Below, piece after piece: positions 265 through 18,813 of a stretch of DNA of 64,000 nucleotides (position 1 is its first letter; each line of letters starts with the position of its first letter). The notes beneath the pieces are model-generated. The model was not told the origin of the DNA and did not search any database. It worked only from the letters and a program-made list of their open reading frames with translations. The DNA is from Perlabentimonas gracilis (GTDB lineage Bacteria > Bacteroidota > Bacteroidia > Bacteroidales > Tenuifilaceae), in NCBI RefSeq assembly GCF_011174675.1, contig NZ_JAANIG010000019.1:1-64000 (forward strand), read 5' to 3'. A program made the position numbers and the translations under genes.

Positions 265-1416
265 ATGTTTATTAAAAGGGATATAGCGGCATTGATTGAG
301 GAGTACCTAGAGTATTTCCCGGTGGTTTGTGTAACTGGCCCTCGGCAGTCGGGTAAAACTACGCTGGTTCGCAAAATGTTTCCCGACTATCATTACTTCT
401 CCTTTGAGGATCCTGACCATAAGCTGTTATTTAACAACGATCCAAAGGGCTTTTTAGAGTCGGTAAAGCAAGGCGCAATACTTGATGAAGCTCAGAAAGC
501 ACCTGAAATTTTTTCGTATTTGCAGGGAATAATCGATGAACCCAACTATAATGGTAAATTCATTATTTCGGGATCACAAAACTTTCTATTACTTAAAAAT
601 GTAACTCAAACCCTTGCCGGAAGAGCAGGAATAGTGAATGTCCTACCTTTTTCGGTGGCTGAAATCGGTAAGGAATTTTCACTCGATGCCAATACTAGAA
701 TACTACAGGGCTTATATCCCCGAGTATTATCAAAAAATATACCCCCAGAGCTTTTCTATCCAAACTATATTCAAACATTTATTGAGCGAGACATAATAGA
801 TGTTAGAAGCATTACCGATAAAACGGCATTCTACCGATTTATTAAACTTTGCGCGGCAAGGTGCGGCCAAATACTTAACTACTCACAGCTCGCTCTCGAT
901 TGTGGAATTGCGGTAAATACAGCTAAAGCATGGTTATCGCTGCTCGAAAGTTCTTTCATCGTATTTCTTTTGCCACCCTACTTTGTTAATATTTCAAAGC
1001 AACTTGTTAAAAGCCCAAAGCTATACTTCTATGATGTTGGTCTTGTTTCCGCATTGTTGCAAATCAAAACTACCGATCAGTTGAAACATCATGCAATGTA
1101 TGGTGCACTGTTCGAAAACCTCCTTGTAGCGGAAATGATGAAGCTTGCTGCATTATCCAAGGGGGCTATGATGAATTACTTTTTGAGGGATAAAACAGGG
1201 CATGAGATCGACCTACTGGTAAAAGGGAGCAAAACATCGTTTGTTGAGATTAAATCGGGCCATACCATAAAGGATGAACACATGAAAAACCTGTTATACT
1301 ATGCGGGTATTATTACCCACGATGATAAATACATACTACACCAAGGCCAAAGTAATCTTAAAGTAAAGGGAATAAATATTCTAAATTGGATAGGTTTATT
1401 AGATATTGATTGGTAA
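265..1416 (+). CDS. AAA-family ATPase with C-terminal DUF4143 domain (array copy 1)
   Basis: An ATPase of the widespread AAA/DUF4143 family, whose biological role is not established. Seen: Walker A GPRQSGKTT at about residues 25-33, Walker B-like AILDEAQ, sensor motif ISGSQNF, then a conserved LAGRAG. The C-terminus carries HEIDLL...FVEIKSG, resembling a PD-(D/E)XK nuclease fold. I chose the ATG at 265 because the paralogues start M-(Y/F)-IKR-(D/E) at the same distance from Walker A and because the promoter lies just upstream; an upstream TTG at 214 overlaps the promoter. It is followed directly by a degenerate 3'-gene fragment. Three close paralogues (4796, 6541, 8091) lie downstream in the same orientation, so this is one unit of an amplified array. 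Confidence 0.85.
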   Translation: MFIKRDIAALIEEYLEYFPVVCVTGPRQSGKTTLVRKMFPDYHYFSFEDPDHKLLFNNDPKGFLESVKQGAILDEAQKAPEIFSYLQGIIDEPNYNGKFIISGSQNFLLLKNVTQTLAGRAGIVNVLPFSVAEIGKEFSLDANTRILQGLYPRVLSKNIPPELFYPNYIQTFIERDIIDVRSITDKTAFYRFIKLCAARCGQILNYSQLALDCGIAVNTAKAWLSLLESSFIVFLLPPYFVNISKQLVKSPKLYFYDVGLVSALLQIKTTDQLKHHAMYGALFENLLVAEMMKLAALSKGAMMNYFLRDKTGHEIDLLVKGSKTSFVEIKSGHTIKDEHMKNLLYYAGIITHDDKYILHQGQSNLKVKGINILNWIGLLDIDW

Positions 1417-1464
1417 ACTAGTTCCAGTTCGTTCCTCATTAGGTTTTTTCGTCAGAAATAAAAT

Positions 1465-1539
1465 TACCAAACCCTGAGCATTATCAGTGAGTCCTACTTC
1501 GATATGGATTTCGACCAGTTTTTCTACCTAACCGATAGG
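1465..1539 (+). pseudogene. Degenerate fragment 1 of a repeated gene 3' end
   Basis: Read in one frame from 1465, this stretch encodes YQTLSIISESYFDMDFDQ followed by FFYLTD. The same residues recur at 3011, 5989, 7783 and 9246. There is no start codon and the frame dissolves after 1539. It looks like a remnant of the C-terminal part of a protein whose 5' portion is absent. From memory it resembles the end of WbmS-like polysaccharide deacetylases, but I am not sure of that. Confidence 0.6.
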
Positions 1540-1714
1540 GCGATTATGCGAGAGGAAACGAGAGGGGTTAGAGCGAAAAGCGAGATCATCGCACATACGA
1601 AAAAACTAACCGATGAGGCGATAAGGCGAAGGGCAAAACGCACACCTCCACCCATAAATTTCCTAAGCAGATAAAAAAATTATGCGAAATGTAATGCATT
1701 ACAAAACAAATGGC

Positions 1715-1722
1715 TAAATTTG
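1715..1722 (+). promoter_or_regulatory. TAnnTTTG promoter box (TAAATTTG)
   Basis: A TAAATTTG -7 box lies 22 bases before the ATG of the ATPase at 1745. It sits in a stretch with direct repeats of GTAATGCA. No clear -33 element is seen. Confidence 0.5.
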
Positions 1723-1744
1723 TGTAATGCAATTCTAAAATGCT

Positions 1745-2962
1745 ATGGAAAACCTATATGAACAAAGCCAACAGTTTATTTATAAACAAGAAAGCAAGAA
1801 GTACAGGAGCCTGTACTCGCAAATAGATTGGAGTAATAGGCTGATAGAGGTAAATGGTGCCAGAGGAGTAGGAAAAACTACCCTTTTGCTGCAGAGAGCC
1901 AAGGAGGTTCTTTCTGGCAATTCGCGGGAAGTGCTGTATGCTTCGCTTGATGATCCTTACTTTTACAGCAATAGCATTGTTGATACCGCCGAAATGTTTG
2001 TTAAGTACGGGGGAAGCTTCCTGTTTCTTGATGAGGTACACAAGTACCCACCAAAGCAAAGGGATTACGACTGGAGTGCTGAGCTCAAGGTTATATACGA
2101 TCGATACCCCGAGCTCCAGATTGTTTACTCTGGGTCGTCGTTGTTGCAACTATACAAGGGGAGTGGTGACCTTAGCCGTCGTAAATGCAACTATAACCTG
2201 CCAGGGCTTTCGTTTCGTGAGTTTGTTAACTGGTACCATGATCAGACCTTTGAAGTTTTTTCGTTAGCCTCCATTCTGAATAGCCACGAAGGCATAGCAA
2301 AAGATATTGTTGCCCAAGTAAAGATTTTGCCACTTTTCCAAAACTACCTTAGGTTTGGCTACTATCCATATTACCATGAGGCCCCAAATCATTTCTATAA
2401 GCGATTGAAGGACACCATCACCGTAGTCCTCGAACAGGATATTCCTGCTGTAGCATCATTCTCTACAGAGAGCAGTATTAAACTTAAAAAATTATTGGCG
2501 GCTCTTAGTATTACTGTTCCCTATACCCCCAACCTCTCTAATCTCCGATCGGAGCTATTTATAGCAGATCAACGCACGCTTCTAAAATACTTAAATGCAC
2601 TTGAAATTGCGGAGCTTATTGCCACCCTAGATAGAGAGGTCAAAGGAATAAAAACGCTACAAAAACCAGAAAAAATATACTTGAATAATACAAATCTTGC
2701 CCATTGCTTGGTGCAAGGCATGCCTAATATTGGAACAATAAGAGAAACATTCTTTTTGAACCAACTAAGAAGTCTGCATAAGGTAAGCTATACCAAATCG
2801 GGTGATTTTCTCGTCAACTCTTCTCTTAGTTTCGAGGTGGGAGGGAAAAGTAAAACGAGCCAGCAGGTGAAGCATATCGAAGGGGCGTCGCTAGCATTGG
2901 ATGATATTGAGATTGGGTTTGGCAATCGCATCCCTTTATGGCTTTTCGGTTTTTTGTATTAG
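1745..2962 (+). CDS. AAA-family ATPase, second type
   Basis: This ATPase is related to the DUF4143 group but clearly different from its four neighbours. Walker A is GARGVGKTT at about residues 38-46, Walker B is FLFLDEVHK, and the sensor region is IVYSGSS. The C-terminal half has winged-helix-like and DUF4143-like segments (NNTNLAHCL, FFLNQL) and ends in a short sequence, PLWLFGFLY, that closely matches the end of the homologue at 56929-58122 (PLWTLGLLY). No clear nuclease D-ExK motif is visible. It is flanked on both sides by the repeated 3'-gene fragments, so it belongs to the same array. Its function is not known to me. Confidence 0.82.
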   Translation: MENLYEQSQQFIYKQESKKYRSLYSQIDWSNRLIEVNGARGVGKTTLLLQRAKEVLSGNSREVLYASLDDPYFYSNSIVDTAEMFVKYGGSFLFLDEVHKYPPKQRDYDWSAELKVIYDRYPELQIVYSGSSLLQLYKGSGDLSRRKCNYNLPGLSFREFVNWYHDQTFEVFSLASILNSHEGIAKDIVAQVKILPLFQNYLRFGYYPYYHEAPNHFYKRLKDTITVVLEQDIPAVASFSTESSIKLKKLLAALSITVPYTPNLSNLRSELFIADQRTLLKYLNALEIAELIATLDREVKGIKTLQKPEKIYLNNTNLAHCLVQGMPNIGTIRETFFLNQLRSLHKVSYTKSGDFLVNSSLSFEVGGKSKTSQQVKHIEGASLALDDIEIGFGNRIPLWLFGFLY

Positions 2963-3010
2963 TCGGCTAGTATTACCTCAGTAGTACTATCGCCTATCAG
3001 AGCACGATGC

Positions 3011-3106
3011 AAGAATCTAATGAAAACCTACGACTACCAAACCCTAGGCATTATTGGCGAGCCCTACTTCGATATGGATTTCGACCAGTTTTTCTATCTA
3101 ACCGAT
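3011..3106 (+). pseudogene. Degenerate fragment 2 of the repeated gene 3' end
   Basis: In frame from 3011 this encodes TYDYQTLGIIGEPYFDMDFD followed by QFFYLTD. It is the best preserved copy of this segment. The frame is lost right after LTD, where unrelated sequence with a hairpin begins (3160-3212). It resumes with the terminal 20 codons at 3280. Confidence 0.65.
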
Positions 3107-3159
3107 CTCATTTAGACTTGGCTCTTCCACAATGGGCCACAGTGCTTTGCCTTGAGCAG

Positions 3160-3212
3160 TTCGACAGGTGGTCAGTGAGTTTATCGAACTGCTCACTGTA
3201 ACGCCTGTCGAA
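3160..3212. repeat. Imperfect palindrome (TTCGACAGG ... CCTGTCGAA)
   Basis: Arms TTCGACAGG (3160-3168) and CCTGTCGAA (3204-3212) are perfectly complementary. Inner arms GTGAG and CTCAC pair as well, around a short loop. It interrupts the repeated 3'-gene fragment. Short relatives of the AGCCTGTCGAA core occur near 12078 and 7950. Confidence 0.55.
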
Positions 3213-3279
3213 AGGTAACTCAGCGGGAACAGAGTGTAACACTCCCGCCATAGAGCGGCGGGACAGGTTGTGGAATTAA

Positions 3280-3342
3280 GAGCTGGTGTTGCAAAATGTG
3301 AAGAATTTGGTTAAGAGGGTTTTAGTTGTAGCTAACCGATGA
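3280..3342 (+). pseudogene. Terminal 20 codons of the repeated gene (ELVLQNVKNLVKR...stop), copy A
   Basis: The sequence encodes ELVLQNVKNLVKRVLVVANR and then TGA. Copies at 4670-4732 and 6264-6326 also run exactly 20 codons from the same Glu to a stop. This shows it is a genuine C-terminus and not random reading. Confidence 0.65.
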
Positions 3343-3516
3343 AGTATAGCTTAAGTTTGAGGGCTTTAGCGGCGCATCTGTTATGCGAAGTTATTATATT
3401 CCTCTGCTGAAGCAAGATCTTTTGATATACAAACATAACGCTCCCAATTCTCCTCAATAGTTCTACTCTGAGATAGAGCTGAACATATGTATATCTGCGG
3501 TTGGGGTGTGGTCTCG

Positions 3517-3548
3517 TCTCGTCTCGTCAAAGTTTTGACGAGACGAGA
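3517..3548. repeat. Perfect 14-bp palindrome, TCTCGTCA family
   Basis: The arms at 3517-3530 and 3535-3548 are perfectly complementary around the 4-base loop AGTT. The core CTCGTCAA/TTGACGAG is shared with the palindromes at 4442-4478 and 18439-18463. No T-run follows, so a terminator role is not obvious. From about 3343 to 3682 I see nothing else convincing. Confidence 0.7.
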
Positions 3549-3682
3549 GGAGTACGAAGCTGTGACTTCATCATTTTGCATTGAACATTCCTGCGACCGT
3601 TGTCTGATCGTGTAACTCATTCACCCAAAACTTGTCCCGCCGCTCTCTGTCGGGATTGGATACACCCCGTGTTGGGGGCTGG

Positions 3683-3991
3683 CTATATTATCTTCATTTT
3701 CTCGGGATTCTGACGACAATCGAACACAGATGCAATTGTAATTGTTTCATTTTCTTGCCAATAAATAATTTTATAGTTACTTTCTACAAGATATCGAAAG
3801 TCTTCTGACATTTCACTTAGAAGTTCTTCTTTGGGTCCAGACACTGGATTTTTAAGTAAAATCTCAACCCTATCAACAATCTTATTTACAATATTCTTAG
3901 CAATACTTGGACTGGCTTTAATAGAGTAGTAATCAAAAATATAATTTAATTGTTTTGTTGATAATTCAGACCATTCAATTTTTACTTCCAT
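3683..3991 (-). CDS. RelE/ParE-family toxin
   Basis: A small basic protein of 102 residues. The fold signature is typical of RelE/ParE toxins: an N-terminal EWSELSTKQLNYIFDYY helix, a central NPVSGPKEELLSE turn, then FRYLVESNYKIIYW and a C-terminal VFDCRQNPEKM. ParE-type members act on DNA gyrase and RelE-type members are mRNA interferases; sequence alone does not settle which applies. Its start overlaps the last 10 bases of the upstream antitoxin gene, the usual toxin-antitoxin operon order. It sits inside the ATPase array. Confidence 0.8.
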   Translation of the reverse strand: MEVKIEWSELSTKQLNYIFDYYSIKASPSIAKNIVNKIVDRVEILLKNPVSGPKEELLSEMSEDFRYLVESNYKIIYWQENETITIASVFDCRQNPEKMKII

Positions 3992-4224
3992 GATTTGATT
4001 CTCTTCTTTAATTCTTCATGCGAAATAACCCGACCGTTTGCTTTGTCTTGTTTTGCTTGGTCAATCATTTCATGGAAATCATTCAAAGACATAGGTTTTA
4101 ATTCCCTATCATATTGTTTCTTTTTCTCAATTCTAATAAAAGATTCTAGTTTCTCAATGATACTCTCATCTGAGATTCTTAAAAATTCTTCTATTAGATT
4201 CAGTTTTCTTGCTTGTATGTTCAT
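3982..4224 (-). CDS. Antitoxin of the RelE/ParE pair
   Basis: An 80-residue acidic/basic protein with an N-terminal helix (RKLNLIEEFLRISDESIIEKLE) and a C-terminal segment (SHEELKKRIKSWK) resembling antitoxins that partner ParE. It is translationally coupled to the toxin by a 10-base overlap. A TATATTTG box on the minus strand at 4246-4253 lies 21 bases before its ATG. It presumably neutralises the toxin and represses the operon; that is family knowledge, not seen here. Confidence 0.72.
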   Translation of the reverse strand: MNIQARKLNLIEEFLRISDESIIEKLESFIRIEKKKQYDRELKPMSLNDFHEMIDQAKQDKANGRVISHEELKKRIKSWK

Positions 4225-4245
4225 TTCTTCAATCTTTACTATCTA

Positions 4246-4253
4246 CAAATATA
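4246..4253 (-). promoter_or_regulatory. TAnnTTTG promoter box of the toxin-antitoxin operon
   Basis: On the minus strand the sequence reads TATATTTG, giving a leader of roughly 18 bases before the antitoxin ATG. The rest of the gap from 4254 to 4660 holds one strong palindrome (4442-4478) and no gene I can support. Confidence 0.55.
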
Positions 4254-4441
4254 ACGAGTTTCGATTGAAAGTGTTTGGGTTGGTCGTCTTTTTTTAGCTT
4301 GCCCCCAACTATCATTTATATCTACTATTCTACGCGCACCACTCCTCTACTCTCACCCTTCAAATCCAAAAACACCCACCCCACCAATTACTCTTCACGC
4401 CAACGCAAATGAGATAAGCTAATCCTCACCCTCGCACTGTG

Positions 4442-4478
4442 TCTCGGATCTCGTCAAAAAAGATGACGAGATCCGAGA
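4442..4478. repeat. Perfect 15-bp palindrome, TCTCGTCA family
   Basis: The arms 4442-4456 and 4464-4478 are perfectly complementary around the loop AAAAAGA. The core ATCTCGTCA/TGACGAGAT is shared with the elements at 3517 and 18439. The long perfect stem without a following T-run argues for a REP-like element over a simple terminator. Confidence 0.7.
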
Positions 4479-4669
4479 TCAACGCATCAACATTGCCACC
4501 ACTAGAGCAACTCGGCAGTGCCGTGGCTAAAGGAGTTGTTTTGGCAAAACACTAGAACCTATTAAAGAAGGCTTAAATTTATATTAGATAGCCACTCACA
4601 TTAAGATGTGCGAAACAACTAACCACCGTGTAACTCAGTGTATGACATAGTGTAACTCAGTGGAATTAA

Positions 4670-4732
4670 GAGTTGGTATTGCAGAACGTGAAAAATTTGG
4701 TTAAGAGGGTAATTGCTGCAAAAAAACGATGA
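4670..4732 (+). pseudogene. Terminal 20 codons of the repeated gene, copy B
   Basis: This encodes ELVLQNVKNLVKRVIAAKKR and then TGA. The upstream bases TGGAATTAAGAG are also shared with copy A. Two direct copies of TGTAACTCAGTG lie just before it (about 4629-4662). Confidence 0.6.
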
Positions 4733-4760
4733 GCGCAAATAGATTATAAAATTTAATATG

Positions 4761-4768
4761 TATATTTG
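4761..4768 (+). promoter_or_regulatory. TATATTTG promoter box of ATPase copy 3
   Basis: A TATATTTG box lies 27 bases before the ATG at 4796. All four DUF4143 ATPases in the array use this same TATATTTG octamer. Confidence 0.55.
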
Positions 4769-4795
4769 CAGTTCTAATGCATAATAGCATATTGT

Positions 4796-5941
4796 ATGTA
4801 CATTAAAAGAGAGATTCAGCCACATCTAGAGAAAATGCTGGGTCAATTCCCCGTTCTTTCTCTCACAGGGCCAAGGCAATCGGGCAAAACCACGCTCCTG
4901 CTTAACGCCTTTCCAAGCTATAAGTACTACAATTTGGAAAGGGTGGATTATCGTCAGCTTATTATGGAAGACCCTTTAGGCTTCCTAAAAAGCAATGGGC
5001 CAGGTATTATTTTTGATGAGGCTCAGAATCTTCCCGAGCTATTTAGCTACATTCAGGTAGTTTCCGATGAGAGTGGTGCGGCTGGGCAGTATGTGCTATC
5101 GGGTTCTCAAAGTTTTCTAATGAACCAGCACATTTCGCAATCACTAGCAGGCAGGGTTTACATTAGCCATCTGTTGCCTTTTTGCTTCAGCGAGGTAGGT
5201 GTATCAGCTGACCTGTTCAGCTCCATTCACAACGGTTTTTACCCGCGTTTAGTGGAAAAGGGAATTAATCCCACCGATTTTTACCCATCGTACTTGCATA
5301 CATATGTAGAAAGGGATATAAGATCGTTAAAGGCAATTGAGGATTTAAATACATTCACAAGGTTTCTATCTTTATGCGCCGGAAGGGTTGGTCAGGTACT
5401 TAACCTCACCTCGCTTGCCAACGACGTGGGTGTTGCCGTAAATACAGTAAAGTCGTGGATATCATTGCTTGAGGCAAGCTACATTATTTTTTTACTGCAA
5501 CCCTACCATAACAATTTTAGCAAAAGGATAATAAAATCACCAAAGCTTTACTTTACCGATACTGGTGTTGTCTGCTCTTTGCTGCGCCTAGAAAGTCCAG
5601 AGATGTTGAAAACACATTACCTATATGGATCACTTTTCGAGAATTTGGTAATTAGCGACATCCGCAAACAGCTCTATAACCTTGGAAAGGAACCAAATAT
5701 ATACTATTGGCGCGAAAGTAATGGTACCGAGATTGATTGCATCCTTGAACTTAGCGCCACAAACCGTATGGCCATTGAAATAAAGGCAGGTCAAACTTTT
5801 AGCAAAGATTACTTCAAGAATTTAAAAAATTATCCTGATAATACAGCAAAGAAAGTTGTTGTTTACGCTGGCGAGGAATCTATTAGCACGGGGGGTTTTT
5901 CATTGATACCGTGGTCCAAACTCACCAATATTGTTGATTAG
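4796..5941 (+). CDS. AAA-family ATPase with DUF4143 domain (array copy 3)
   Basis: A 381-residue paralogue of the gene at 265. It starts MYIKREIQPHLEKML, with Walker A GPRQSGKTT at about residues 24-32, Walker B GIIFDEAQ, sensor LSGSQSFLM and SLAGRVY. The C-terminal part contains TEIDCIL...MAIEIKAGQ, the nuclease-like D...ExK pattern. The order of motifs and the length match copies 1, 4 and 5, with extensive substitution between them, so the duplications are old. A frameshifted but long copy of the repeated gene tail follows it directly. Confidence 0.85.
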   Translation: MYIKREIQPHLEKMLGQFPVLSLTGPRQSGKTTLLLNAFPSYKYYNLERVDYRQLIMEDPLGFLKSNGPGIIFDEAQNLPELFSYIQVVSDESGAAGQYVLSGSQSFLMNQHISQSLAGRVYISHLLPFCFSEVGVSADLFSSIHNGFYPRLVEKGINPTDFYPSYLHTYVERDIRSLKAIEDLNTFTRFLSLCAGRVGQVLNLTSLANDVGVAVNTVKSWISLLEASYIIFLLQPYHNNFSKRIIKSPKLYFTDTGVVCSLLRLESPEMLKTHYLYGSLFENLVISDIRKQLYNLGKEPNIYYWRESNGTEIDCILELSATNRMAIEIKAGQTFSKDYFKNLKNYPDNTAKKVVVYAGEESISTGGFSLIPWSKLTNIVD

Positions 5942-5988
5942 GGTTTAACAAAGCAGAGTCCACCATAGAAAAAACCAGCTTAAGGAAA

Positions 5989-6326
5989 AACGACTACAGC
6001 CCCTGGGCGTAATTGGCGAGTCCTACTTCGATATGGTTTTCAACCAGTTCTTCTACCTTACCGACACCGCCCGCCGCTGGGATGGCTGGCGCACTAGCGT
6101 GCGGGATAGGGTTCCCCAGCAGGAGCGTTGGATTAAAGAGGGTCTGGTTTTTAAAACCACAAGCAATATTATTAAAGCTGCCATTTGCGGAAAACTTCCC
6201 CCTCAAATAATGATTACCGTTCACCCCCAGCGCTGGAGCAGTTCGGCTGCGCCGCGGGTAAAGGAGTTAGTGTTGCAGAACGTGAAGAATTTGGTTAAGC
6301 GGATTTTAATTGTTGGGTATAGATAG
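5989..6326 (+). pseudogene. Longest copy of the repeated gene 3' end
   Basis: From 6009 to the TAG at 6324-6326 one frame stays open. It encodes VIGESYFDMVFNQFFYLTDT..., GWRTSVRDRVPQQERW, EGLVFKTTSNIIKAA, KLPPQIMITVHPQRW and ELVLQNVKNLVKR. Compared with the copy at 3011 it lacks one base near 5995, which breaks the upstream reading. The central HPQRW and the ordering suggest the C-terminal third of a carbohydrate-active enzyme; from memory it resembles WbmS-like polysaccharide deacetylases. The rest of the 5942-6540 gap holds no other gene. Confidence 0.65.
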
Positions 6327-6393
6327 CAATTCATATTTAGTCTGGTTCCTCGAGAACGAGCCCGCCTGTGGCAAGATTATGAAGATGCATCCA

Positions 6394-6415
6394 GATTATC
6401 AGTATAATTTTAAAT
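6394..6415 (+). repeat. Short repeat GATTAyArTATAATTTTAAAT, copy 1
   Basis: Twenty of 22 bases match 7997-8018. Both copies lie between a gene-tail fragment and the next ATPase promoter, so this is another conserved piece of the repeating cassette. Confidence 0.5.
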
Positions 6416-6507
6416 GAGTTAAGAACTAAGAGTTAAGCTATACCCACTACTCATCGCTTAAATCTCACTACTTCCGGTTCACCGCTAAATAAATGGCGTT
6501 TTGCGGA

Positions 6508-6536
6508 TTGTGATTCCATATATTTCCATATATTTG
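6508..6536 (+). promoter_or_regulatory. Promoter of ATPase copy 4, leaderless spacing
   Basis: A TTG (6508-6510) and TATATTTG (6529-6536) are 18 bases apart. The ATG follows only four bases after the box, so transcription should begin at or next to the start codon. Confidence 0.6.
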
Positions 6537-6540
6537 CTGT

Positions 6541-7695
6541 ATGATAACAAGAATCGCTTTACATAGGCTTAGGCATCTATCCTCAATGTTCAAAGTTGTT
6601 GCCATTACCGGGCCGCGGCAATCGGGTAAGACAACGCTGGTAAAAGTCGCTTTCCCTAACAAACCATACATTACATTGGAGAATCCCGACACCAGAAGGT
6701 TTTCAATTGATGATCCCCGTGGTTTTTTATTGCAATTTCCCGAGGGCGCTATCTTAGACGAAATACAGCGAAGTCCTCTTTTGTTTTCATATTTACAGGA
6801 AATTGTAGATAACAATACAATGCCCGGTCAGTTTGTACTAACTGGTTCAAACAACTTTTTGCTCAACGAACAGATTAATCAATCTTTAGCCGGTAGGGTT
6901 GGATTCTTAAACCTTTTTCCCTTTTCACTTGCAGAGATTAAAGCATATGATTTACCTTATTCTGAGAATGATTACATAATCAATGGGTTTTATCCACCTG
7001 TTTACGACCAGAATATCAGCATTAAGGAATGGATGCCCAGCTATATTAGAACGTATATCGAAAGAGATGTTAGGCAAATAAAAAATGTAACGGATTTGCT
7101 TGTTTTCGAAAAGTTTATGAGGCTACTAGCAGGGCGAGCCGCTCAGGAGCTTAACTATACATCCCTTGCGGTTGAGGTTGGGGTAGATGTGAAAACAATA
7201 CAATCGTGGCTAAGTATTCTGGTAAGTAACTTTATTGTGTACTTACTCCCTCCCTTCTATAAAAACTATAATAAAACAGTTGTTAAACGGCCAAAACTTT
7301 TCTTTTACGACACCTCCCTAGCGTGTTCATTGCTTGGCATCCATAAGGTTGAACATCTGCAATCCCATCCGCTAAGGGGTCCTTTGTTCGAATGTCTTGT
7401 AGTTTCAGAAATAATCAAACAAAAGAATAATTCAGGCAGTACAGAATCCCTCTACTTCTGGAGAGATAAAACGGGTCGGGAAATTGATCTGGTAATAGAC
7501 AAAACCACTTCCTTTATTCCTTTAGAGATTAAATCGGGTAAAACCATACACGATGACTTTTTTAAAAACTTAAGGTACTGGCTAAAGCTTACGGGAGAGA
7601 AACAGGGGAAGCTTATTTATGCTGGAGCCGAAAACCAGAAGCGTTCGGAAGGCATTGAGGTTATCAGCTGGGGGGAAATATCGCTTTTCGATTAA
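6541..7695 (+). CDS. AAA-family ATPase with DUF4143 domain (array copy 4)
   Basis: A 384-residue paralogue. Walker A is GPRQSGKTT at about residues 24-32, Walker B GAILDEIQR, sensor LTGSNNFLL, then SLAGRVG. The C-terminal motif is REIDLVID...IPLEIKSGK. This ATG is the only sensible start, since the residues before Walker A match the paralogues in number. There is no room for a 5' leader or ribosome-binding site, because the promoter box ends at 6536. The gene-tail remnant follows at 7783. Confidence 0.85.
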   Translation: MITRIALHRLRHLSSMFKVVAITGPRQSGKTTLVKVAFPNKPYITLENPDTRRFSIDDPRGFLLQFPEGAILDEIQRSPLLFSYLQEIVDNNTMPGQFVLTGSNNFLLNEQINQSLAGRVGFLNLFPFSLAEIKAYDLPYSENDYIINGFYPPVYDQNISIKEWMPSYIRTYIERDVRQIKNVTDLLVFEKFMRLLAGRAAQELNYTSLAVEVGVDVKTIQSWLSILVSNFIVYLLPPFYKNYNKTVVKRPKLFFYDTSLACSLLGIHKVEHLQSHPLRGPLFECLVVSEIIKQKNNSGSTESLYFWRDKTGREIDLVIDKTTSFIPLEIKSGKTIHDDFFKNLRYWLKLTGEKQGKLIYAGAENQKRSEGIEVISWGEISLFD

Positions 7696-7782
7696 CTTCA
7701 ACATAACACTCTAAGCCAGAATCGAGAGGCAGGATCGAGAAGCCCATTGTCAAAATACGATAGTAAGGATCTATGTAAATAC

Positions 7783-7881
7783 TACATCTACATGGGGTTA
7801 GGCATTATTGGCGAGCCCTACTTCGGTATGGATTTCGACCAGTTCTTCTACCTTACTGACACCGGCCGCCGCTGGGATGTT
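7783..7881 (+). pseudogene. Degenerate fragment 4 of the repeated gene 3' end
   Basis: In frame it encodes LGIIGEPYFGMDFDQFFYLT followed by DTGRRWDV, then diverges. After it comes a short inverted repeat around GGTTTGACT/AGTCAAGCC (about 7917-7984) and the second GATTA repeat. Confidence 0.65.
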
Positions 7882-7996
7882 ACCTTGGAGGAGCACATTG
7901 AGCGCAGGGCAAGTGAAGGTTTGACTGTCGCTGAGCCTGCGTTGCACTGAGCGTGTCGAAGTGTCGAAATGCAAAGTCAAGCCTTCACTGGTAGCC

Positions 7997-8018
7997 GATT
8001 ACAAGTATAATTTTAAAT
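7997..8018 (+). repeat. Short repeat GATTAyArTATAATTTTAAAT, copy 2
   Basis: This is the partner of 6394-6415. It lies about 60 bases before the promoter of ATPase copy 5. Confidence 0.5.
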
Positions 8019-8078
8019 TCACAAACTCGATTTTATTTTTTCTTAGCCTTACAATTCGGGAATTCAATTCCGATATTG

Positions 8079-8086
8079 TATATTTG
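8079..8086 (+). promoter_or_regulatory. Promoter box of ATPase copy 5, leaderless spacing
   Basis: TATATTTG ends four bases before the ATG at 8091, the same spacing as copy 4. The in-frame TTG-like start at 8076 would lie upstream of the box and is rejected. Confidence 0.6.
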
Positions 8087-8090
8087 TGCT

Positions 8091-9245
8091 ATGGTAAAAC
8101 GCGATGCAGAGAAAGAGTTGGTAGCGCTGTGTAAGCAGTATAAGGCAGTAGCACTAGTGGGTCCGCGACAATCGGGCAAAACAACACTTGCCCGTAGCGC
8201 ATTCGCCCATCTTCCCTACGTAAGCCTCGAGAATCCCGACACCAGAAACTTTGCTCTTAACGATCCACGAGCCTTTTTAAAGCAGAACTCATCCGGTGCC
8301 ATACTCGATGAGGCTCAGCGAGCCCCAGAGCTATTCTCATACCTGCAACAGGTGTTGGACGATAGCCCCGAAACAGGTCGCTTTATCATTACTGGTTCCA
8401 ACAACTTCCTGCTTCAGGATAACATATCTCAGAGTTTAGCTGGCAGGGTGGCATACCTTTACCTTTTACCATTTACATTGGGTGAAGCGGATTCTACCAA
8501 CGATATTGACTCCCTGATCCACAAAGGACTTTACCCAGCGATATACGATCGAAGTATTGAACCATCAAAATGGTACGCTAACTACATCAGAACCTATGTG
8601 GAGCGCGATGTGAGGCTGATAAAAAATATCACTAATTTAATTGCCTTCGAGAAATTCCTGCGGCTATGTGCGGGTAGGGTAGGCCAATTATTGAATATGA
8701 ACAGCCTGGCCATCGAGTCGGGAGTCGACGGTAAAACCATAGCCTCTTGGATTGGAGTGCTGGAGAGTAGCTTCATAGTTTTTAGGCTACAGCCTCACCA
8801 CGTTAGCTTTAATAAGCGCATAGTAAAAATGCCCAAGCTCTATTTCTACGATACGGGGTTGGCCTGCTCCCTGCTGGGTATTGGCTCGCCTCATCAGGTG
8901 AGCACTCACTATGCGAAGGGAAGTCTTTTTGAGAACCTCGTAATAGCCGAACTTGTAAAGCATAGGTATAACAAGGGCGAGAATCACAACCTTTTCTTCT
9001 GGCGCGATAATATTGGTCACGAGGTTGATATTCTGGCCGATACGCCCAATGGCATACTCCCTATTGAGATTAAAGCAGGGAGCACCATAAATGAAAACTT
9101 CTTTAAGGGCATTGAGTTTTGGAAAAAACTAACGGGCAGTAATAGGGGTATTGTTGTTTTTGCTGGCGATACTAAACAGGAACGGAGCTCGGGCATAAGC
9201 ATTGTACCCTGGCTTAATTTACGTAGCATTTATGATCTTTTATAA
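8091..9245 (+). CDS. AAA-family ATPase with DUF4143 domain (array copy 5)
   Basis: A 384-residue paralogue starting MVKRDAEKELVALCKQY. Walker A is GPRQSGKTT, Walker B GAILDEAQR, sensor ITGSNNFLL, SLAGRVA. The C-terminal motif is HEVDILAD...LPIEIKAGS. It is closest by eye to copy 4: both share LENPDTR near residue 48 and SGKTI or KTI segments in the middle. A gene-tail fragment begins at 9246, one base after the stop, so gene and fragment appear to have been duplicated as a unit. Confidence 0.85.
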   Translation: MVKRDAEKELVALCKQYKAVALVGPRQSGKTTLARSAFAHLPYVSLENPDTRNFALNDPRAFLKQNSSGAILDEAQRAPELFSYLQQVLDDSPETGRFIITGSNNFLLQDNISQSLAGRVAYLYLLPFTLGEADSTNDIDSLIHKGLYPAIYDRSIEPSKWYANYIRTYVERDVRLIKNITNLIAFEKFLRLCAGRVGQLLNMNSLAIESGVDGKTIASWIGVLESSFIVFRLQPHHVSFNKRIVKMPKLYFYDTGLACSLLGIGSPHQVSTHYAKGSLFENLVIAELVKHRYNKGENHNLFFWRDNIGHEVDILADTPNGILPIEIKAGSTINENFFKGIEFWKKLTGSNRGIVVFAGDTKQERSSGISIVPWLNLRSIYDLL

Positions 9246-9347
9246 ATGGATTTCTACCAGTTTTTCTAACTAACCTATACCGGCCGCCGTTGGGATGGCT
9301 GGCGCTCTAGCGTGCACGATAGGGTTCTCCAGCAGGAGCGTTGGAAC
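9246..9347 (+). pseudogene. Degenerate fragment 5 of the repeated gene 3' end
   Basis: It reads MDFYQFF-stop-LTYTGRRWDGWRSSV and onward to DRVLQQERW. An internal TAA and several substitutions show it is dead. It marks the right edge of the ATPase array. From 9348 to 9513 there is CTTTCGAC-type degenerate repeat (about 9383-9432) and a weak promoter box, TACCTTTA at 9473-9480. Confidence 0.65.
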
Positions 9348-9513
9348 ATACTTGGTCAAACAGGCAGGGATAACAGGTTTTTACGACTCTCGACTTCCAA
9401 CTTTTGACTTTTGACTTTCCACTTTCCGACATTCAACCTTCCCACCCTCATCCACATAAATAAACAATTTACTACCTTTACAGTTACCTATAAAATCGAT
9501 ACACTAGACATTG

Positions 9514-11193
9514 ATGAGACGAATTGCATACACACTCACCCTTATAATAACGGGTTTAACCCTACACGCACAGGTGGCATACCAGCATGTTAGCGATAGG
9601 GATATCTACAATTTCCTCGATGAGCTAGCCAGCATACACGTTATCTGTATCAACTCAACCGTGAAACCCTACCCCCGCACCACCATTGCAGGGTACCTGC
9701 AAAAGGCCAGCGAACAATCGCAAATGCTTAGCCGCTCGCAGAGGGCACGCCTGAGTCATTATATGGAGGAATACCAGATGGAGCTGGGCGAACTGAAGGA
9801 GGGCGAATGGCAGCTATTTAAGCGCGACTCATCCGTGTCGGTTCATTTCCTTCCCCCTGAGGTGGCCTACAGGGACTCGTTCTTTAGGGCGCTCATGCGC
9901 CCCGTTTATGGCTTTCGCTACTTCTCAGGCGGAGAAAGGGACTTCTGGGTATCGTACGGAGGGGCCGAAGCCATTTCGTACATGGGCGATACCTGGTCGG
10001 TTTACGCCAGTCTTCGCGACAACTACCAGGCGGGTGAGCGCTTGGCGCAACCGTCGTTCCTAACGCAGGAGCTGGGTGGAACATACAAGGCGCTAACAGG
10101 TGGTGGTCCAGGGGGCGAGTTTAGCGAGATGCGAGGTGGTATAACCTGGAGCTGGAACTGGGGATCCTTTGGATTAATAAAAGATCATATGATGTGGGGT
10201 GACAACCAGAACGGCAGTAATATCTTCTCGGGGCGCACGCCATCGTTTCCCATGGTAAAGCTGTATTTGAATCCTGCCAAATGGTTAGAGTTTAGCTACT
10301 ACCACGGCTGGTTGGTATCGGAAGCTATCGATAGCGTTAACTCAATATTCCCAGCCGAGGGAAACGCACGCACCGTTCATAGACGGATGTACATAGCCGC
10401 CAATATGTTTACCGTTAAACCACTCGAGCGGCTAAACATCTCCTTTGGTAACTCCATTGTGTATGGCGATATGGATGTGCAGCCCGCTTACCTAATCCCA
10501 TTCTTCTTCTACAAATCGTTAGTACACACCATTCACTGGGGATCGTCGTTTCAGAATAATGCCATGTTTATCAATATCAGCTCAAGGCAGCTAAAGCACC
10601 TGCATCTGTTCGGAACACTTTTTATCGATGAGTTCTCGGTGAAGCGTATCGGCGACCCCACGCGGCACAACTTTAACAGCTACAAGACCGGATTCACGCT
10701 GAGCCACTGGCCAATACGTAACGTGGTGCTGGGAGGTGAATACACCTTCACCAACCCCATTACATTTTTGCACGACGAGCCCACAACCAGCTTCTCCTCC
10801 AATAAATACAACCTGGGGCACTACCTAAAGGATAATGCCGAGGAGTTTTACGCTACCCTTCGGATATACCCAGCGGGAACACTGCAGCTTTCGGCATCGT
10901 ACACCTATGCCCGCAAGGGGCATTACTACGAGTATATCCGTGGTATGCGCAATCCGCGGATTGATGAGCTACCTGTGCTTGAGGAGATTACCTGGGATAG
11001 CAGTAGCTTGGTATTCGCTGCACAGGTTAATCCGCTTCCAAATATCCGCATCTTTGGTAAGTACACCATTAGCAACGTGCAGGGTTACGATGTGGATGGC
11101 CGCACCGCCCAGCAGTACCTCAACATGTTCTCGGCACCCTACCTACACGGCAAAAACAACATTTTTGAGATGGGATTTGGAATGGGATTTTAA
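9514..11193 (+). CDS. Wzi-like capsule assembly / outer-membrane beta-barrel protein
   Basis: A 559-residue exported protein with a signal peptide (MRRIAYTLTLIITGLTLHAQ). Family features include the N-terminal region with IYNFLDELA and a long run of alternating aromatic/polar beta strands with repeated W-G and Y-G motifs (GGGPGGEFSEM, WGDNQNG, LYLNPAKWLEF). The Wzi family anchors or assembles surface polysaccharide in the outer membrane. I chose the ATG at 9514 over the adjacent TTG at 9511. It stands alone between repeats. The assignment rests on overall resemblance, so another barrel family is possible. Confidence 0.7.
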   Translation: MRRIAYTLTLIITGLTLHAQVAYQHVSDRDIYNFLDELASIHVICINSTVKPYPRTTIAGYLQKASEQSQMLSRSQRARLSHYMEEYQMELGELKEGEWQLFKRDSSVSVHFLPPEVAYRDSFFRALMRPVYGFRYFSGGERDFWVSYGGAEAISYMGDTWSVYASLRDNYQAGERLAQPSFLTQELGGTYKALTGGGPGGEFSEMRGGITWSWNWGSFGLIKDHMMWGDNQNGSNIFSGRTPSFPMVKLYLNPAKWLEFSYYHGWLVSEAIDSVNSIFPAEGNARTVHRRMYIAANMFTVKPLERLNISFGNSIVYGDMDVQPAYLIPFFFYKSLVHTIHWGSSFQNNAMFINISSRQLKHLHLFGTLFIDEFSVKRIGDPTRHNFNSYKTGFTLSHWPIRNVVLGGEYTFTNPITFLHDEPTTSFSSNKYNLGHYLKDNAEEFYATLRIYPAGTLQLSASYTYARKGHYYEYIRGMRNPRIDELPVLEEITWDSSSLVFAAQVNPLPNIRIFGKYTISNVQGYDVDGRTAQQYLNMFSAPYLHGKNNIFEMGFGMGF

Positions 11194-13660: not shown

Positions 13661-16600
13661 TCAGACTTTCGACTTTCTTAACCCCACATAATCCGCCAAC
13701 GGTTCAACCTCCTGTGAGTCGGCAATTACAATGGTGTGACCCTCGCGTATTAACCTATCGAAAAGTTGAAACAGCTTCTGAGTGTTGGCCCAATCGAGCC
13801 CTCGAGTGGGCGAATCGAATAGGATAATGGCCGGCTCACGCTTCAGCCCGGCAATACTCTCGGCCAGCATTAACCTACGCCGCTCGCCGTGCGATAGCGT
13901 AGAAATCTCTTGCCCACAGGTTAGGTAACCCAGCCCCACCAACTGAAGCTGCAGCAGCATCTTCTTGCTTTTGGGTGACATAAAACTTGCTCCGTAGATT
14001 TCATCCACAGAAACCCTAAGCCATTGGCTTAAGGTTCTACCCTCCACTTGATAGGTTAACCATTCATCCTTATACCTTAGCCCATTGCACTCGGGACACA
14101 CCTCCTTTACATCGGGTAAAAAATCGAGCGTGGTGGTAACAAAACCCAGCCCTTTACACCTTGGGCACTGCGATTTTTTGCTGTTAAAGCCAAAATCGGC
14201 TTCCGCAATTCCCTTCGCAATGGCCTCGGGGGTTACAGCAAAGGCTTTTTTCAAATCATTCATTAGGCCAACTCGGGTAGCTATAGCGCTCTGGCTATTT
14301 GCCTGCGGCAGTCGATTTGTTGCTCTTATCAACTTCAGCTCATCCTGATGTTCGCATTCCAAAGCAATTCTACCCAGCAGTTGCGTTTTGCCACTTCCAA
14401 TTGATCCTGTAATAAGGTTTATGCGCTGTGGATAAATTGTGGCTGATTTAATTTGCGGAATGGGCTCAACACCATGCAGGCTCATCTTTTCTCTCACAAA
14501 CCTATCCCCCTTGTAAAGAATTCTGGCTGCAACGGGCGATATTTGGCTATCTATGTCCTTTGGATGAATATCAGCAACTATCTTTCCTCCGTCCTCGCCT
14601 GCGCTAGGGCCAAGCTCAATAACCCTATCGGCTACGTTAATAATCTCAGGCCGATGGTCGCTAACCAATATTGTGTTTCCCCTCTGCTGTGCCTGCTTAA
14701 GTGTATGCACCAGGTGCTCTCGCGATTTGGAATCCATTCCCCAGGTGGGCTCATCGAGTATAATACACATCCCGCTTTGATGCGATGAGAGAACACCCCC
14801 CAGCTGAATCCACTTGAGCTCGCCGCTCGATAGCCATGCGGCCGGCCGACCCAACGTAAGGTAACCTAATCCGGCTTTCGATAGAAATTCTAACTTTTCG
14901 CGCAGTTGCATCACCAAAGGCTGAGATACTTGCCCGTAAGCAGGTTGTTTGGTCTGCTTCAGCAGCCCATCGATAGGTTGCTCTAAAACCTGGCCAATAC
15001 TTAATCCATTGAAGGTGTATTTTAGCAACTCGGGTCGCAGCCTGTGTCCTTTGCACTCCGTACAGGGCATATCGGTAAGCAACTCCAGAGCACTCCTACC
15101 CTTTGCCGAAGGAAAATGAGTACGATACTCCTCTTCAATCAATTTACACAGCCCATCCCAAGTCCCATCAAACAAGTGGCTCCCCTCGCCTCCCTTGCGT
15201 TTAAACTGCCATTGCGCCTTGTACTGCTGGCTGCCAGTACCCCACAGAATCATCCCCCTTTCGCACTCACTTAAATCGTTCCAAGGCTTTTCGGTATCAA
15301 TCCCATGATGCTGACCCATTGCCTGCAGGAGCCATCGATACTTATTCCTCTCGTCGACAAAAAACTGAACCGTTTTGTGTGATGATAACGCACCATGGAG
15401 CAAGGGCCGGTTGGGATTAATTACAACCCTATCGATACTACAACGCTTTATGTGCCCAGTACCCTCGCAAACCTTGCATACCGAATGCTTATTTACTAGC
15501 GAAAAGTCGGCAGCCGTAAGCTTTCTGCCATCGGGATTGTTGGCAAAGCGAGCGTAGAGTAACCTCAGCAAATCGTAGATTCCGCTGGCCGAAGCTACGG
15601 TCGATTGCACATCGGGCCGAGGAGTATCGGCCTCGATGGCCACCGTGGGCAGCATGCTGAGCACTTTGCCTATCTGACCCGAGGTGTTAAGCCTCATCTG
15701 TAGTCGACGAAAACCAGAGATGTTCTCGGTAAAAAGGCGCTGCCCCTCGGCATGCAGGGTTTGCATAAGTAGCGACGTTTTTCCGCTACCCGACACTCCC
15801 GTGAAGGCAACCAGCTGCCCAGCATCGATATGCAGGTCGATATGCTTGAGGTTGTTGGTGTAAATATCTTGCAGATGAATTGCTGGCGATGCACTTTTCA
15901 CCTCAGCATAATTGTATTCTTGTTTCTTACCAATTGCTTGGGTTGTGGGTGAACTATGCGATGTGAAAAACTGCTGAGTGGATCCACAGAAAAGGGATTT
16001 TCCCCCATCATTGCCTCCCTCGGGACCAATATCTACAATCCAGTCGGCCGAGGCAATTAGCTGTGTGTCGTGCTCAACCACCACCACGGTATGCCCCTTG
16101 GCTGTGAATGCGTGCAGCGCATCAATAAGCTTCTTAATATCCATAGCGTGCAAACCGGTGGTGGGTTCATCGAGCACGTACATACATTGCCCCTTGGGCA
16201 ATTGGTAGAGTGCGCTGGCCAGCTTCACCCGCTGCGCTTCGCCCCCCGATAGTGTGGTCGACGACTGCCCTAGGTGTAGATACCCCAAGCCCAGCTTTTC
16301 CAAAGCCTGTAGGTACGGTAACAAGCTTGGAGTATTTGAAAAATGCTGCAAAGCTTGGTTAACGCTTAGCTCCAACACCTGAGCAATGCTTAATCCCTCC
16401 ACCATTACCTTGAGCACCTCGGCATTGTACCTTGTGCCACCGCAAACAGAGCAGGGTTGCACCAAATCCTCAAAAATATGCATACCAGTTTTTACAACCC
16501 CTGTACCCAGACAGGCTTCGCACTGACCCTGCTTCCCGTTAAACGTAAAGTGACTAGCCGTTAGATTAGCTGATTTAGCATCTGCCGATTGGGCAAATAT

Positions 16601-18274
16601 CTTTCTAAGCACATCGAGAAGCCCAGTGTAGGTTGCGGCATTACTTCGCGATGTGCGACCGATGGGTTTTTGATCGACATGTATTACCTGCTTAAACCCA
16701 TCAACCTTTAGTAGTCCGTAATTTACCAAAGTGCTCTTGCCAGCACCCGAAACACCTGTTATTACATTTAGTGCACTTCGGGCAAAAGTGAACATTTGAT
16801 TTTGGATATTATGCTGGTTTTGGATAAAAATATCGAAGGTATCAAAATGCTCCGTTCTACTGCTTAAAAGTTTATGAGGATTGGCAAAGCCATTATTAAG
16901 CATCTGTATTGTAGGGCTCTCCAGTGATTTATGGTTAACCATTTGGCTAACCGAACCGCTATATATCAGCTGTCCCCCCTTTGCGCCTGCGCCTGGCCCT
17001 AGCTCGATAATGTTCTGTGCGGCACGAATAACCTGCTCGTTATGCTCCACCACAACCACCGTGTTGCCCTGCTTCACCAGCGAGTACATGGTGTCGATTA
17101 GGGTATGGGTATCGCGCTGATGCAACCCAATGGAGGGCTCATCGAAAAGGTATAATACCCCAGTTAGTCCACTGTGATTTAGCTGCGCCAAGCGCATTCG
17201 GCGGAGTTCACCCTGCGATAGGGTTTCGCTTAGACGATTGCAAGCAATATGGCCAACGCTTAGGCAGCATAGCATATCCAGTCGGCTTGCTATGGTGCTA
17301 AGTAAAGCACTTTCGGCCTGCTGAGTTGATTTGTGTAGCTTAATACTCTCGTATAAATCGCGAATGGGAAGCGATTCGTAATCGTAGTAGGTTTGCCCGT
17401 TCCAAGTAACCCCAAGCGACTCGCTATTTAATCGATTGCCTTGGCAAGCTGGGCATTCGCGAGCCGACATAAACCTAAGGATATTGTCGTTCCTATCGCG
17501 CCGAAGAATATCCTCCATAACGGGAATAATTCCCTTGTAGTAGCCCTCCTCCCTTGGCCGTGCGGTTATGCCTGTCCACTTTAGTCTAGACTCGAGGGAG
17601 TGTTTGCCGTAAAGCACTTTCACCTTGTCCGATCCATTAAGGATTATGGCTCTCTGATCGTCACTCAAATCTTTCCAAGGGGTATCAACGCTAAACCCAT
17701 AGTGTTGGCAAACCTTGTTAAGTTCATCAATAGTTACCTGCGAGTAAATGGTATATCCATTGGGTAGGGTAATAACCAGTGCCCCTTGCCTAAGCGACAA
17801 GTTGGGGTTGGCAATCAGTTTGCCGATATCAATAAACTCTTCAATACCCAAGCCCTTACAATGTGGGCACCACCCCTTATCGGAATTGAACGAAAAGGCA
17901 TTACGGTTTAGGGTCATCCCCTGATCGTTGAAGCGAGAGAACAGCTGGCGCAGCAAGGGCGATATCTCGCTAAATGTACCTGCGGTGGAGCGCCTATTGG
18001 CCTGAACCTGCGTTTGACCAACGCTTACCACAGGAAGCATCCCCTCGATGCTAGCCACTTTAGCTGGACGGATTTTACCCAAACGTGAACGGGTATACGA
18101 CGAGAAGGTTTCGAAGTACATCCTTTGTCCCTCTCGGTTCAGAACATCGTACACCAAGCTACTTTTACCGCTTCCCGAAACGCCAGTAATAACCGTTAGC
18201 TTGTTGTGCGGGATGCAGACATCAACACCCTTTAGGTTGTTCTCCTCGGCACCCCGTATAATTATTTGCCCCAT
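13661..18274 (-). CDS. Giant UvrA-like protein with four ABC cassettes
   Basis: Normal UvrA is about 940 residues with two ABC cassettes; this protein is about 1537 residues with four. Walker A motifs lie at about residues 33 (GVSGSGKSS), 508 (GVSGAGKST), 828 (GVSGSGKTS) and 1291 (GSIGSGKTQ). Signature motifs are at about 353 (LSQGELRRM), 680 (LSGGEAQRV), 1153 (LSSGELKWI) and 1465 (LSHGERRRL). Each half also has two CxxC-type zinc modules (CPHCKG/CPACQG, CEACLG/CSVCGG; CKVCEG/CTECKG, CPRCKG/CPECNG). It is a head-to-tail fusion of two compact UvrA-like units, each near 780 residues. UvrA proteins find DNA lesions; compact forms are linked to resistance to DNA-binding drugs. I start at ATG 18274 because the upstream start overlaps the promoter. 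The last residues (RKSKV) are encoded by CTTTCGA repeat. Confidence 0.88.
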   Translation of the reverse strand: MGQIIIRGAEENNLKGVDVCIPHNKLTVITGVSGSGKSSLVYDVLNREGQRMYFETFSSYTRSRLGKIRPAKVASIEGMLPVVSVGQTQVQANRRSTAGTFSEISPLLRQLFSRFNDQGMTLNRNAFSFNSDKGWCPHCKGLGIEEFIDIGKLIANPNLSLRQGALVITLPNGYTIYSQVTIDELNKVCQHYGFSVDTPWKDLSDDQRAIILNGSDKVKVLYGKHSLESRLKWTGITARPREEGYYKGIIPVMEDILRRDRNDNILRFMSARECPACQGNRLNSESLGVTWNGQTYYDYESLPIRDLYESIKLHKSTQQAESALLSTIASRLDMLCCLSVGHIACNRLSETLSQGELRRMRLAQLNHSGLTGVLYLFDEPSIGLHQRDTHTLIDTMYSLVKQGNTVVVVEHNEQVIRAAQNIIELGPGAGAKGGQLIYSGSVSQMVNHKSLESPTIQMLNNGFANPHKLLSSRTEHFDTFDIFIQNQHNIQNQMFTFARSALNVITGVSGAGKSTLVNYGLLKVDGFKQVIHVDQKPIGRTSRSNAATYTGLLDVLRKIFAQSADAKSANLTASHFTFNGKQGQCEACLGTGVVKTGMHIFEDLVQPCSVCGGTRYNAEVLKVMVEGLSIAQVLELSVNQALQHFSNTPSLLPYLQALEKLGLGYLHLGQSSTTLSGGEAQRVKLASALYQLPKGQCMYVLDEPTTGLHAMDIKKLIDALHAFTAKGHTVVVVEHDTQLIASADWIVDIGPEGGNDGGKSLFCGSTQQFFTSHSSPTTQAIGKKQEYNYAEVKSASPAIHLQDIYTNNLKHIDLHIDAGQLVAFTGVSGSGKTSLLMQTLHAEGQRLFTENISGFRRLQMRLNTSGQIGKVLSMLPTVAIEADTPRPDVQSTVASASGIYDLLRLLYARFANNPDGRKLTAADFSLVNKHSVCKVCEGTGHIKRCSIDRVVINPNRPLLHGALSSHKTVQFFVDERNKYRWLLQAMGQHHGIDTEKPWNDLSECERGMILWGTGSQQYKAQWQFKRKGGEGSHLFDGTWDGLCKLIEEEYRTHFPSAKGRSALELLTDMPCTECKGHRLRPELLKYTFNGLSIGQVLEQPIDGLLKQTKQPAYGQVSQPLVMQLREKLEFLSKAGLGYLTLGRPAAWLSSGELKWIQLGGVLSSHQSGMCIILDEPTWGMDSKSREHLVHTLKQAQQRGNTILVSDHRPEIINVADRVIELGPSAGEDGGKIVADIHPKDIDSQISPVAARILYKGDRFVREKMSLHGVEPIPQIKSATIYPQRINLITGSIGSGKTQLLGRIALECEHQDELKLIRATNRLPQANSQSAIATRVGLMNDLKKAFAVTPEAIAKGIAEADFGFNSKKSQCPRCKGLGFVTTTLDFLPDVKEVCPECNGLRYKDEWLTYQVEGRTLSQWLRVSVDEIYGASFMSPKSKKMLLQLQLVGLGYLTCGQEISTLSHGERRRLMLAESIAGLKREPAIILFDSPTRGLDWANTQKLFQLFDRLIREGHTIVIADSQEVEPLADYVGLRKSKV

Positions 18275-18292
18275 AAATATCGAATTGTATAG

Positions 18293-18300
18293 CAAATATA
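18293..18300 (-). promoter_or_regulatory. TATATTTG promoter box of the giant UvrA-like gene
   Basis: On the minus strand TATATTTG lies 18 bases before the ATG at 18274. It decides against a start at 18295. Confidence 0.6.
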
Positions 18301-18528: not shown

Positions 18529-18533
18529 AAATG

Positions 18534-18607: not shown

Positions 18608-18647
18608 TTATCGGGAAATTAATATTTCTTAGAACTACTTTATTTTT

Positions 18648-18728: not shown

Positions 18729-18731
18729 GAC

Positions 18732-18751: not shown

Positions 18752-18813
18752 TTATTGGATTGCAAAAGTACATATTTGTATCCGAATTTTACAACCCTAA
18801 CATTACTTTTTTT

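Follow-up and report, generated by a model that had tools for sequence, protein, structure and literature searches.

How does a chromosome come to hold five ATPase genes in a row, each followed by a broken piece of one and the same gene? The question is posed by the window analysed here, a stretch of 64,000 nucleotides (nt) at the start of contig 14 (NZ_JAANIG010000019.1; G000:C14:1-64000) of the draft genome of Perlabentimonas gracilis (4.37 Mb, 100 contigs). The broken gene, here called DEAC, encodes a predicted polysaccharide deacetylase and ends a surface-polysaccharide cluster, and the array stands between it and a wzi-like gene. We consider it rather probable that the array is an insertion or recombination hotspot between the terminal DEAC and the wzi-like gene, which takes up compact single-gene units and retains broken DEAC copies as scars. 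Codes beginning with G and L denote the other genomes and loci compared, contig 55 of the present genome being L016.

Intact ATPases alternating with pieces of a deacetylase gene

The ATPase genes A1 (265-1416), A2 (1745-2962), A3 (4796-5941), A4 (6541-7695) and A5 (8091-9245) all lie on the forward strand, and all five open reading frames (ORFs), within 265-9245, are intact. A1 carries the Pfam domains AAA_14 and DUF4143 with a PD-(D/E)XK-like tail (EIDLL...VEIKSG) and matches the PADLOC profile PDC-S01 at E = 3e-91. A3, A4 and A5 likewise combine AAA_14 with DUF4143 and are PDC-S01-like, the profile matches of these four genes covering most of the protein length (E 1e-91 to 1e-100). By profile match and by fusion of the ATPase to a predicted PD-(D/E)XK domain, recognizable as E-I-D...(V/L)EIK(S/A)G in A1, A3, A4 and A5 and absent from A2, these four are putative PDC-S01 genes. 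A2 has AAA_14, a distant DUF4143 match below the cut-off, no PD-(D/E)XK tail and a PDC-S01 match at E = 3e-24, and its identity of about 21% to the other four proteins places it in a distant subfamily. Outside the array lies one more A2-type ATPase (56929-58122, minus strand; 33% identity to A2), and DEAC pieces were not found next to it.

The TAnnTTTG-like motif is a promoter motif of Bacteroidota, and such a motif can be read near the start of each array ATPase, each being a separate ORF with its own start codon and promoter-like sequence upstream. In one ATPase subfamily (L072, L077, L093, L256-L263) an inverted repeat, AATGAC...GTCATT, is conserved just 5' of the promoter, which suggests autoregulation of that subfamily. 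PDC-S01 has been described as a single-gene defence candidate, an ATPase fused to PD-(D/E)XK, of unvalidated antiviral activity (PMC12988326), and ranks among the commonest candidate defence genes detected in prokaryotes (PMC12988326, PMC13356809). Full-text literature searches on DUF4143 and its Pfam names returned nothing relevant. IMG/VR, queried with single-sequence patterns only, gave no match to the ATPase; seven matches to the family, all distant, occurred in phage records, and 380 plasmids carried distant homologues, each below 60% identity.

The pieces between the ATPases derive from a gene whose sole intact copy in the genome (contig 55, 13108-13929, 273 aa) is the last of a surface-polysaccharide cluster containing epimerases, a Wzy-like protein and glycosyltransferases. 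The metal-site motifs of its product, HDVD and HxxEVGYHYE-type (HDVD...H..E.GYHYE), were invariant in 12/12 DEAC homologues, and a DEAC profile finds the peptidoglycan GlcNAc deacetylase 2c1g (E 2e-4). Because Pfam and NCBIfam gave no match, DEAC is at best a distant, divergent member of the CE4/NodB-type polysaccharide deacetylases.

All remnants lie on the forward strand. R1 (1478-1537; codons 169-189; 92% nucleotide identity to the intact gene) starts 62 nt past the A1 stop, and R2 (2998-3106; codons 152-188) contains a 62-bp core 97% identical to intact DEAC. R4 (5951-6362) runs from codon 151 to 40 nt beyond the DEAC stop, with an open frame at 6006-6323 and 87% nucleotide identity over 6006-6362. 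R5 (7756-7879) spans codons 154-195, and R6 (9246-9345; codons 178-211) adjoins the A5 stop without an intervening base and ends 166 bp short of the wzi-like gene. The mid-gene pieces are not chance matches, since their blastn E-values against intact DEAC range from 2e-18 to 3e-124. After all five ATPase stops such a piece begins at 1-62 nt, a closeness with a chance of about 1e-7 to 1e-6 by a hand estimate that assumes uniform placement in intergenic gaps. Shorter pieces comprise DEAC terminal codons at 3280-3328, within a repeat common to contig 55 (14238-14447), and two degraded 3'-end pieces at 4505-4713, assigned by alignment to the intact gene. The end pieces at 3280 and 4670 and those of contig 55 at 14050 and 14246 share one breakpoint sequence, GTGGAATTAAgAG, and are therefore copies of a single truncated piece rather than independent truncations.

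The alternation had been noticed in an earlier, sequence-only reading of this DNA, and it is borne out, as are the proximity of remnants to ATPase stops and the view that a real gene was their source; the donor family and the intact copy that it proposed to look for are DEAC and the gene on contig 55. Other parts of that reading need correction. It took the remnants for C-terminal ends, which is right for the near-complete 3' half at 5951-6362 and the short pieces at 3280 and 4505-4713, and wrong for those at 1478, 2998, 7756 and 9246, which derive from the middle of the gene, about codons 150-211, without its 3' end. Its 20-codon end pieces do carry the DEAC terminal codons, but as copies of one truncated piece and not as independent cases. 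It also treated the five ATPases as one kind, which suits the domains of A1, A3, A4 and A5 and fails for A2, and the gap at 2963-4795, besides remnants, holds a minus-strand toxin-type gene with a likely partner (3683-4224).

Independent arrival of the ATPases

Among themselves A1, A3, A4 and A5 share 42-51% protein identity. A5 is 51% identical to A4 and 55-63% identical to relatives in other families, and A4 reaches 53-65% with proteins of other families, the best (65%) being in G238, from another family, where it stands beside a DEAC remnant. The best relative of A2 (70%) belongs to another genus (G020), where DEAC stands about 320 bp upstream of it. Relatives of A3 occur in G208 (70%) and, adjoining DEAC, in G003 (63%), and those of A1 and A5 are located away from DEAC. 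Approximately unbiased (AU) tests rejected clades of A1+A3+A4+A5 (p = 0.011), A3+A4+A5 (p = 0.0014) and A4+A5 (p = 7e-6). The five ATPases came in independently.

Recurrent use of the DEAC-wzi border

The wzi-like gene is the direct downstream neighbour of DEAC in relatives, with a gap of 130 bp in G025 and of 300 bp in G010, and in several others the gap measures 1.6-5 kb. The window's wzi-like gene (9511-11193, plus strand), recognized by synteny and a weak PF14052 match below the cut-off, stands immediately beyond the array. The array thus occupies the DEAC-wzi interval, where the polysaccharide cluster has its right border. The left side of this interval would be on contig 55. Positions 1-98 of the window are a contig-end copy of a 98-bp repeat, probably the end of an insertion sequence; six other contigs have 100% identical copies, and one of these is at the right end of contig 55. 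Because both ends share this multi-copy repeat, and because a comparison of all contigs confined DEAC pieces to contig 55 and the window's contig, we infer that the two contigs abut.

By counts taken by hand from tables, 12 of the 120 DUF4143 ATPases in the family lie within 10 kb of DEAC, in about 0.3% of the sequence (P = 7e-15), and 5 of its 14 DEAC loci have an ATPase (P = 2e-5). Different ATPases adjoin DEAC in G003, G005, G006 and G020, and even congeners vary: G003 has one A3-like gene (63%) and one unrelated, G005 and G006 have others, and the right flank in G005 is a tRNA-HAD pair that in the window stands at 18532-19464. Over a larger, partly redundant collection of 114 DEAC loci, ATPases were downstream in 17 cases and upstream in 13, with 29 of the 30 on the DEAC strand.

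DEAC fragments like those of the array were found in G003, G227, G238 and L143. G238, from another family, has an intact DEAC, then more genes, a DEAC remnant from about codon 165 and, 400 bp on, the A4-like ATPase, its intact and remnant DEAC being different alleles. In G227 three DEAC fragments surround an A2-like gene; in L143 DEAC codons 1-107 are followed by an ATPase and then by an intact DEAC; and in G003 DEAC sequence from codon 2 begins 6 nt past an ATPase stop. The DEAC-wzi border has been reused recurrently as a site by other genomes. One mechanism offered by the sequence-only reading, repeated arrival of ATPases at the 3' end of a surface-polysaccharide gene, largely survives, in that the donor gene and the cluster to which it belongs are now known, the arrivals are independent and the site is reused. 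It is too narrow in confining them to the 3' end, as ATPases in G003 and G006 stop 6-12 nt before DEAC 5' sequence.

Ends of the ATPase units

An ATPase (90% nucleotide identity over 1387 bp) and a HigBA pair (971 bp, 97% identical) are common to G005 and G006, each on opposite sides of DEAC in the two genomes. In G006 about 12 nt separate the ATPase stop from the start codon of DEAC, and the homology with G005 reaches 6 nt past that stop. In other close ATPase pairs with different contexts the right end of homology falls at -1, +1, -1, +1 and +4 nt relative to the stop, and on the upstream side homology reaches just tens of nt; the mean identity of seven pairs drops from 0.95 directly before the stop to about 0.3 at +18 and beyond. 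The ATPases of G010 and G011 are 88% identical and the DEAC and wzi genes 73-78%, so this ATPase moved after those genes diverged; past its stop the sequences are at chance level although 95% identical just before it. Single genes shuffle around DEAC, and ATPase units end sharply at the stop. In close relatives the unit extends from about 60-110 nt 5' of the ATG, including its own promoter and often an inverted-repeat operator, to its own stop, and turns up in new contexts without flanking homology.

No consistent inverted repeat follows the ATPase stops, and the left unit ends, where target duplications would be sought, are not sharp. No integrase was found in the array, and no search for an integron integrase in the genome was made. 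Three candidate arrangements were rejected, besides the tandem duplication discussed below. Long direct repeats are not a general rule of ATPase flanks: repeats were often seen there, but they belong to different dispersed intergenic families and in one case to a BRO-like gene fragment. ATPase and DEAC as a fixed travelling pair are not supported by the tree, though the best relatives of A2 and A4 lie beside DEAC or its fragments. Integron cassettes were considered after a GCCAGTG..CAAC-like motif recurred behind some stops, but 15 close relatives show no consistent RYYYAAC/GTTRRRY attC pair, and in the array the stops are followed by DEAC fragments.

Weighing the explanations

If the border is a hotspot of the kind proposed, each arrival, or the polysaccharide-cluster exchange accompanying it, would break the resident DEAC; a newly supplied DEAC would take over on the left and the broken piece would stay behind, hence the alternation of ATPases and scars. 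Toxin-antitoxin and Rpn genes would load the same interval, and the ATPases would probably be kept for their help against phage or plasmids, the candidate function of PDC-S01. Several observations weigh against this account. Congeners are related, so that the enrichment figures overstate independence, and the near-equal numbers of upstream and downstream ATPases mean that the attraction may be to the whole polysaccharide locus. DEAC fragments occur without ATPases on contig 55, L156, L196 and L200, fast intergenic divergence could partly explain the loss of flanking homology, and the ATPase tree shows no grouping of DEAC-locus ATPases (7 changes against 7.4 when shuffled). Both halves of one DEAC were never seen around an ATPase, only one-sided junctions, and neither a recombinase nor terminal repeats or target duplications came to light at the units. 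It seems doubtful to us that PDC-S01/DUF4143 ATPases are themselves minimal mobile elements, each a promoter/operator and one ORF ending at the stop, that would be moved by their own ATPase and PD-(D/E)XK nuclease and inserted repeatedly in or beside DEAC.

The main rival, which we hold possible but would not expect, is homologous recombination within DEAC: donors would already carry DEAC-ATPase arrays, crossovers would add or remove a DEAC segment with its ATPase as the cluster is replaced, after the manner of minimal mobile elements or of Rhs/CDI displaced modules, and the ATPases would not have to be mobile themselves. The mid-DEAC fragment after every ATPase stop speaks for such exchange, as do the differing remnant alleles, R4 and R5 sharing variants missing from R1, R2, R6 and intact DEAC, the two alleles in G238, and the position of the closest kin of A2 (G020, G227) and A4 (G238) next to DEAC or DEAC fragments in genomes from other genera or families. 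It accounts poorly for the close ATPase relatives at many DEAC-free loci, with homology ending at the stop, for the relatives of A1 and A5 away from DEAC and for the scatter of DEAC-locus ATPases on the tree; it may also act jointly with unit insertion. That the remnants are plain decay from cluster turnover, with ATPases filling neutral intergenic space and tight junctions by coincidence, would suit the DEAC and DUF354 fragments lacking ATPases and the ATPases that elsewhere occupy repeat-rich intergenic regions, but the strong enrichment near DEAC within the family and the tight spacing of the junctions, 1-62 nt from each of the five stops and 6 nt in G003, make it improbable. Least credible of all is multiplication of a joint remnant-plus-ATPase unit by tandem duplication in this lineage, the other mechanism of the sequence-only reading. 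The regular single-strand alternation and the mutual resemblance of the remnants agree with it, but we reject it because the aligned DNA of the remnants matches intact DEAC at 81-97%, and the ATPases are only 42-51% identical in protein and polyphyletic by the AU tests, with A2 from a different subfamily. Remnant and ATPase histories are incongruent, the very pattern that reading had named as decisive against it, and even homogenisation of the remnants by gene conversion would leave the closer kin of A4 and A5 in other families unexplained.

Other features of the window and of contig 55

The gap between A2 and A3 holds a ParE/RelE-type toxin gene (3683-3991, minus strand; PF05016, E = 2e-9) and a probable partner antitoxin (3982-4224, minus strand), so named from position and overlap and without a Pfam match. 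By sequence comparison, a repeat at 4298-4535 is common to contig 55 (15620-15865, 85%). On contig 55 the repeat flanks that in the window enclose the toxin pair enclose an Rpn (PD-(D/E)XK) gene instead (14675-15562), a second sign of gene exchange at the border. Dispersed short repeats at 9385-9441 and 3513-3552 (AACTTTTGACTTTTGACTTTCC; GAGACGAGACGAG, a palindrome) recur on many contigs.

In relatives a DUF354 gene precedes DEAC (PF04007 on the intact relative). Remnants of it occur on contig 55 at 12753, in L045, in L099 and in the window at 6382-6414 (plus strand), the last a 3' end (...DYQYNFK*). Contig 55 also carries units of about 54 bp in tandem between polysaccharide genes (4297-4796), with the array present at the contig's left end as well.

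Elsewhere in the window, three adjacent minus-strand proteins (50987-51580, 51609-52817 and 53459-54517) end in the tetrapeptide RGGC before the stop; they belong to a sulfur cluster of rhodanese/YeeE-like type next to a multihaem cytochrome (55206-56789), and a C-terminal cysteine tail common to unrelated proteins is unusual. A UvrA-like protein (13661-18295, minus strand) has 1544 aa, about twice the usual length, and apparently comprises two UvrA units in one ORF.

Relation to known systems and significance

Displaced modules of Rhs and contact-dependent inhibition (CDI) systems form serial arrays of a conserved-gene fragment plus a diverse module, and the present array may be likened to them. 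It differs in that its ATPases are separate intact ORFs with promoters of their own, not fused C-termini, and in the absence of toxin/immunity pairing. Integron gene cassettes are likewise compact promoter/ORF units in one orientation, but the ORFs here are not consistently followed by an attC-like pair.

Minimal mobile elements of Neisseria, by the definition cited in PMC4269198, consist of cassette genes that lie between conserved genes and often encode restriction systems. As in these, small and differing candidate defence or toxin genes occupy the space between conserved flanks across genomes without mobility genes of their own: the DEAC-wzi interval is empty in G025 and G010 and holds five ATPases here, with a different right flank in G005. 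On homologous exchange through the flanks the signs are mixed: remnant alleles differ, but close ATPases lack shared flanks. Unlike these elements, the units here pile up in series and leave broken copies of the flanking gene.

The locus resembles hotspots and minimal-mobile-element-like loci filled with candidate defence genes. A1, A3, A4 and A5 agree with PDC-S01 (PMC12988326) in profile, in being single genes of patchy distribution and in joining an ATPase to PD-(D/E)XK; the literature searched yielded no description of a five-gene array at a polysaccharide border, of DEAC scars or of units ending sharply at the stop codon. With its sharp unit ends and a single defined border that was loaded independently, this locus makes both the mobility and the defence role of the frequent PDC-S01 testable. 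Ultimately, the border of a surface-polysaccharide locus, itself likely to determine a phage receptor, may also be a place where candidate genes of intracellular defence are loaded.

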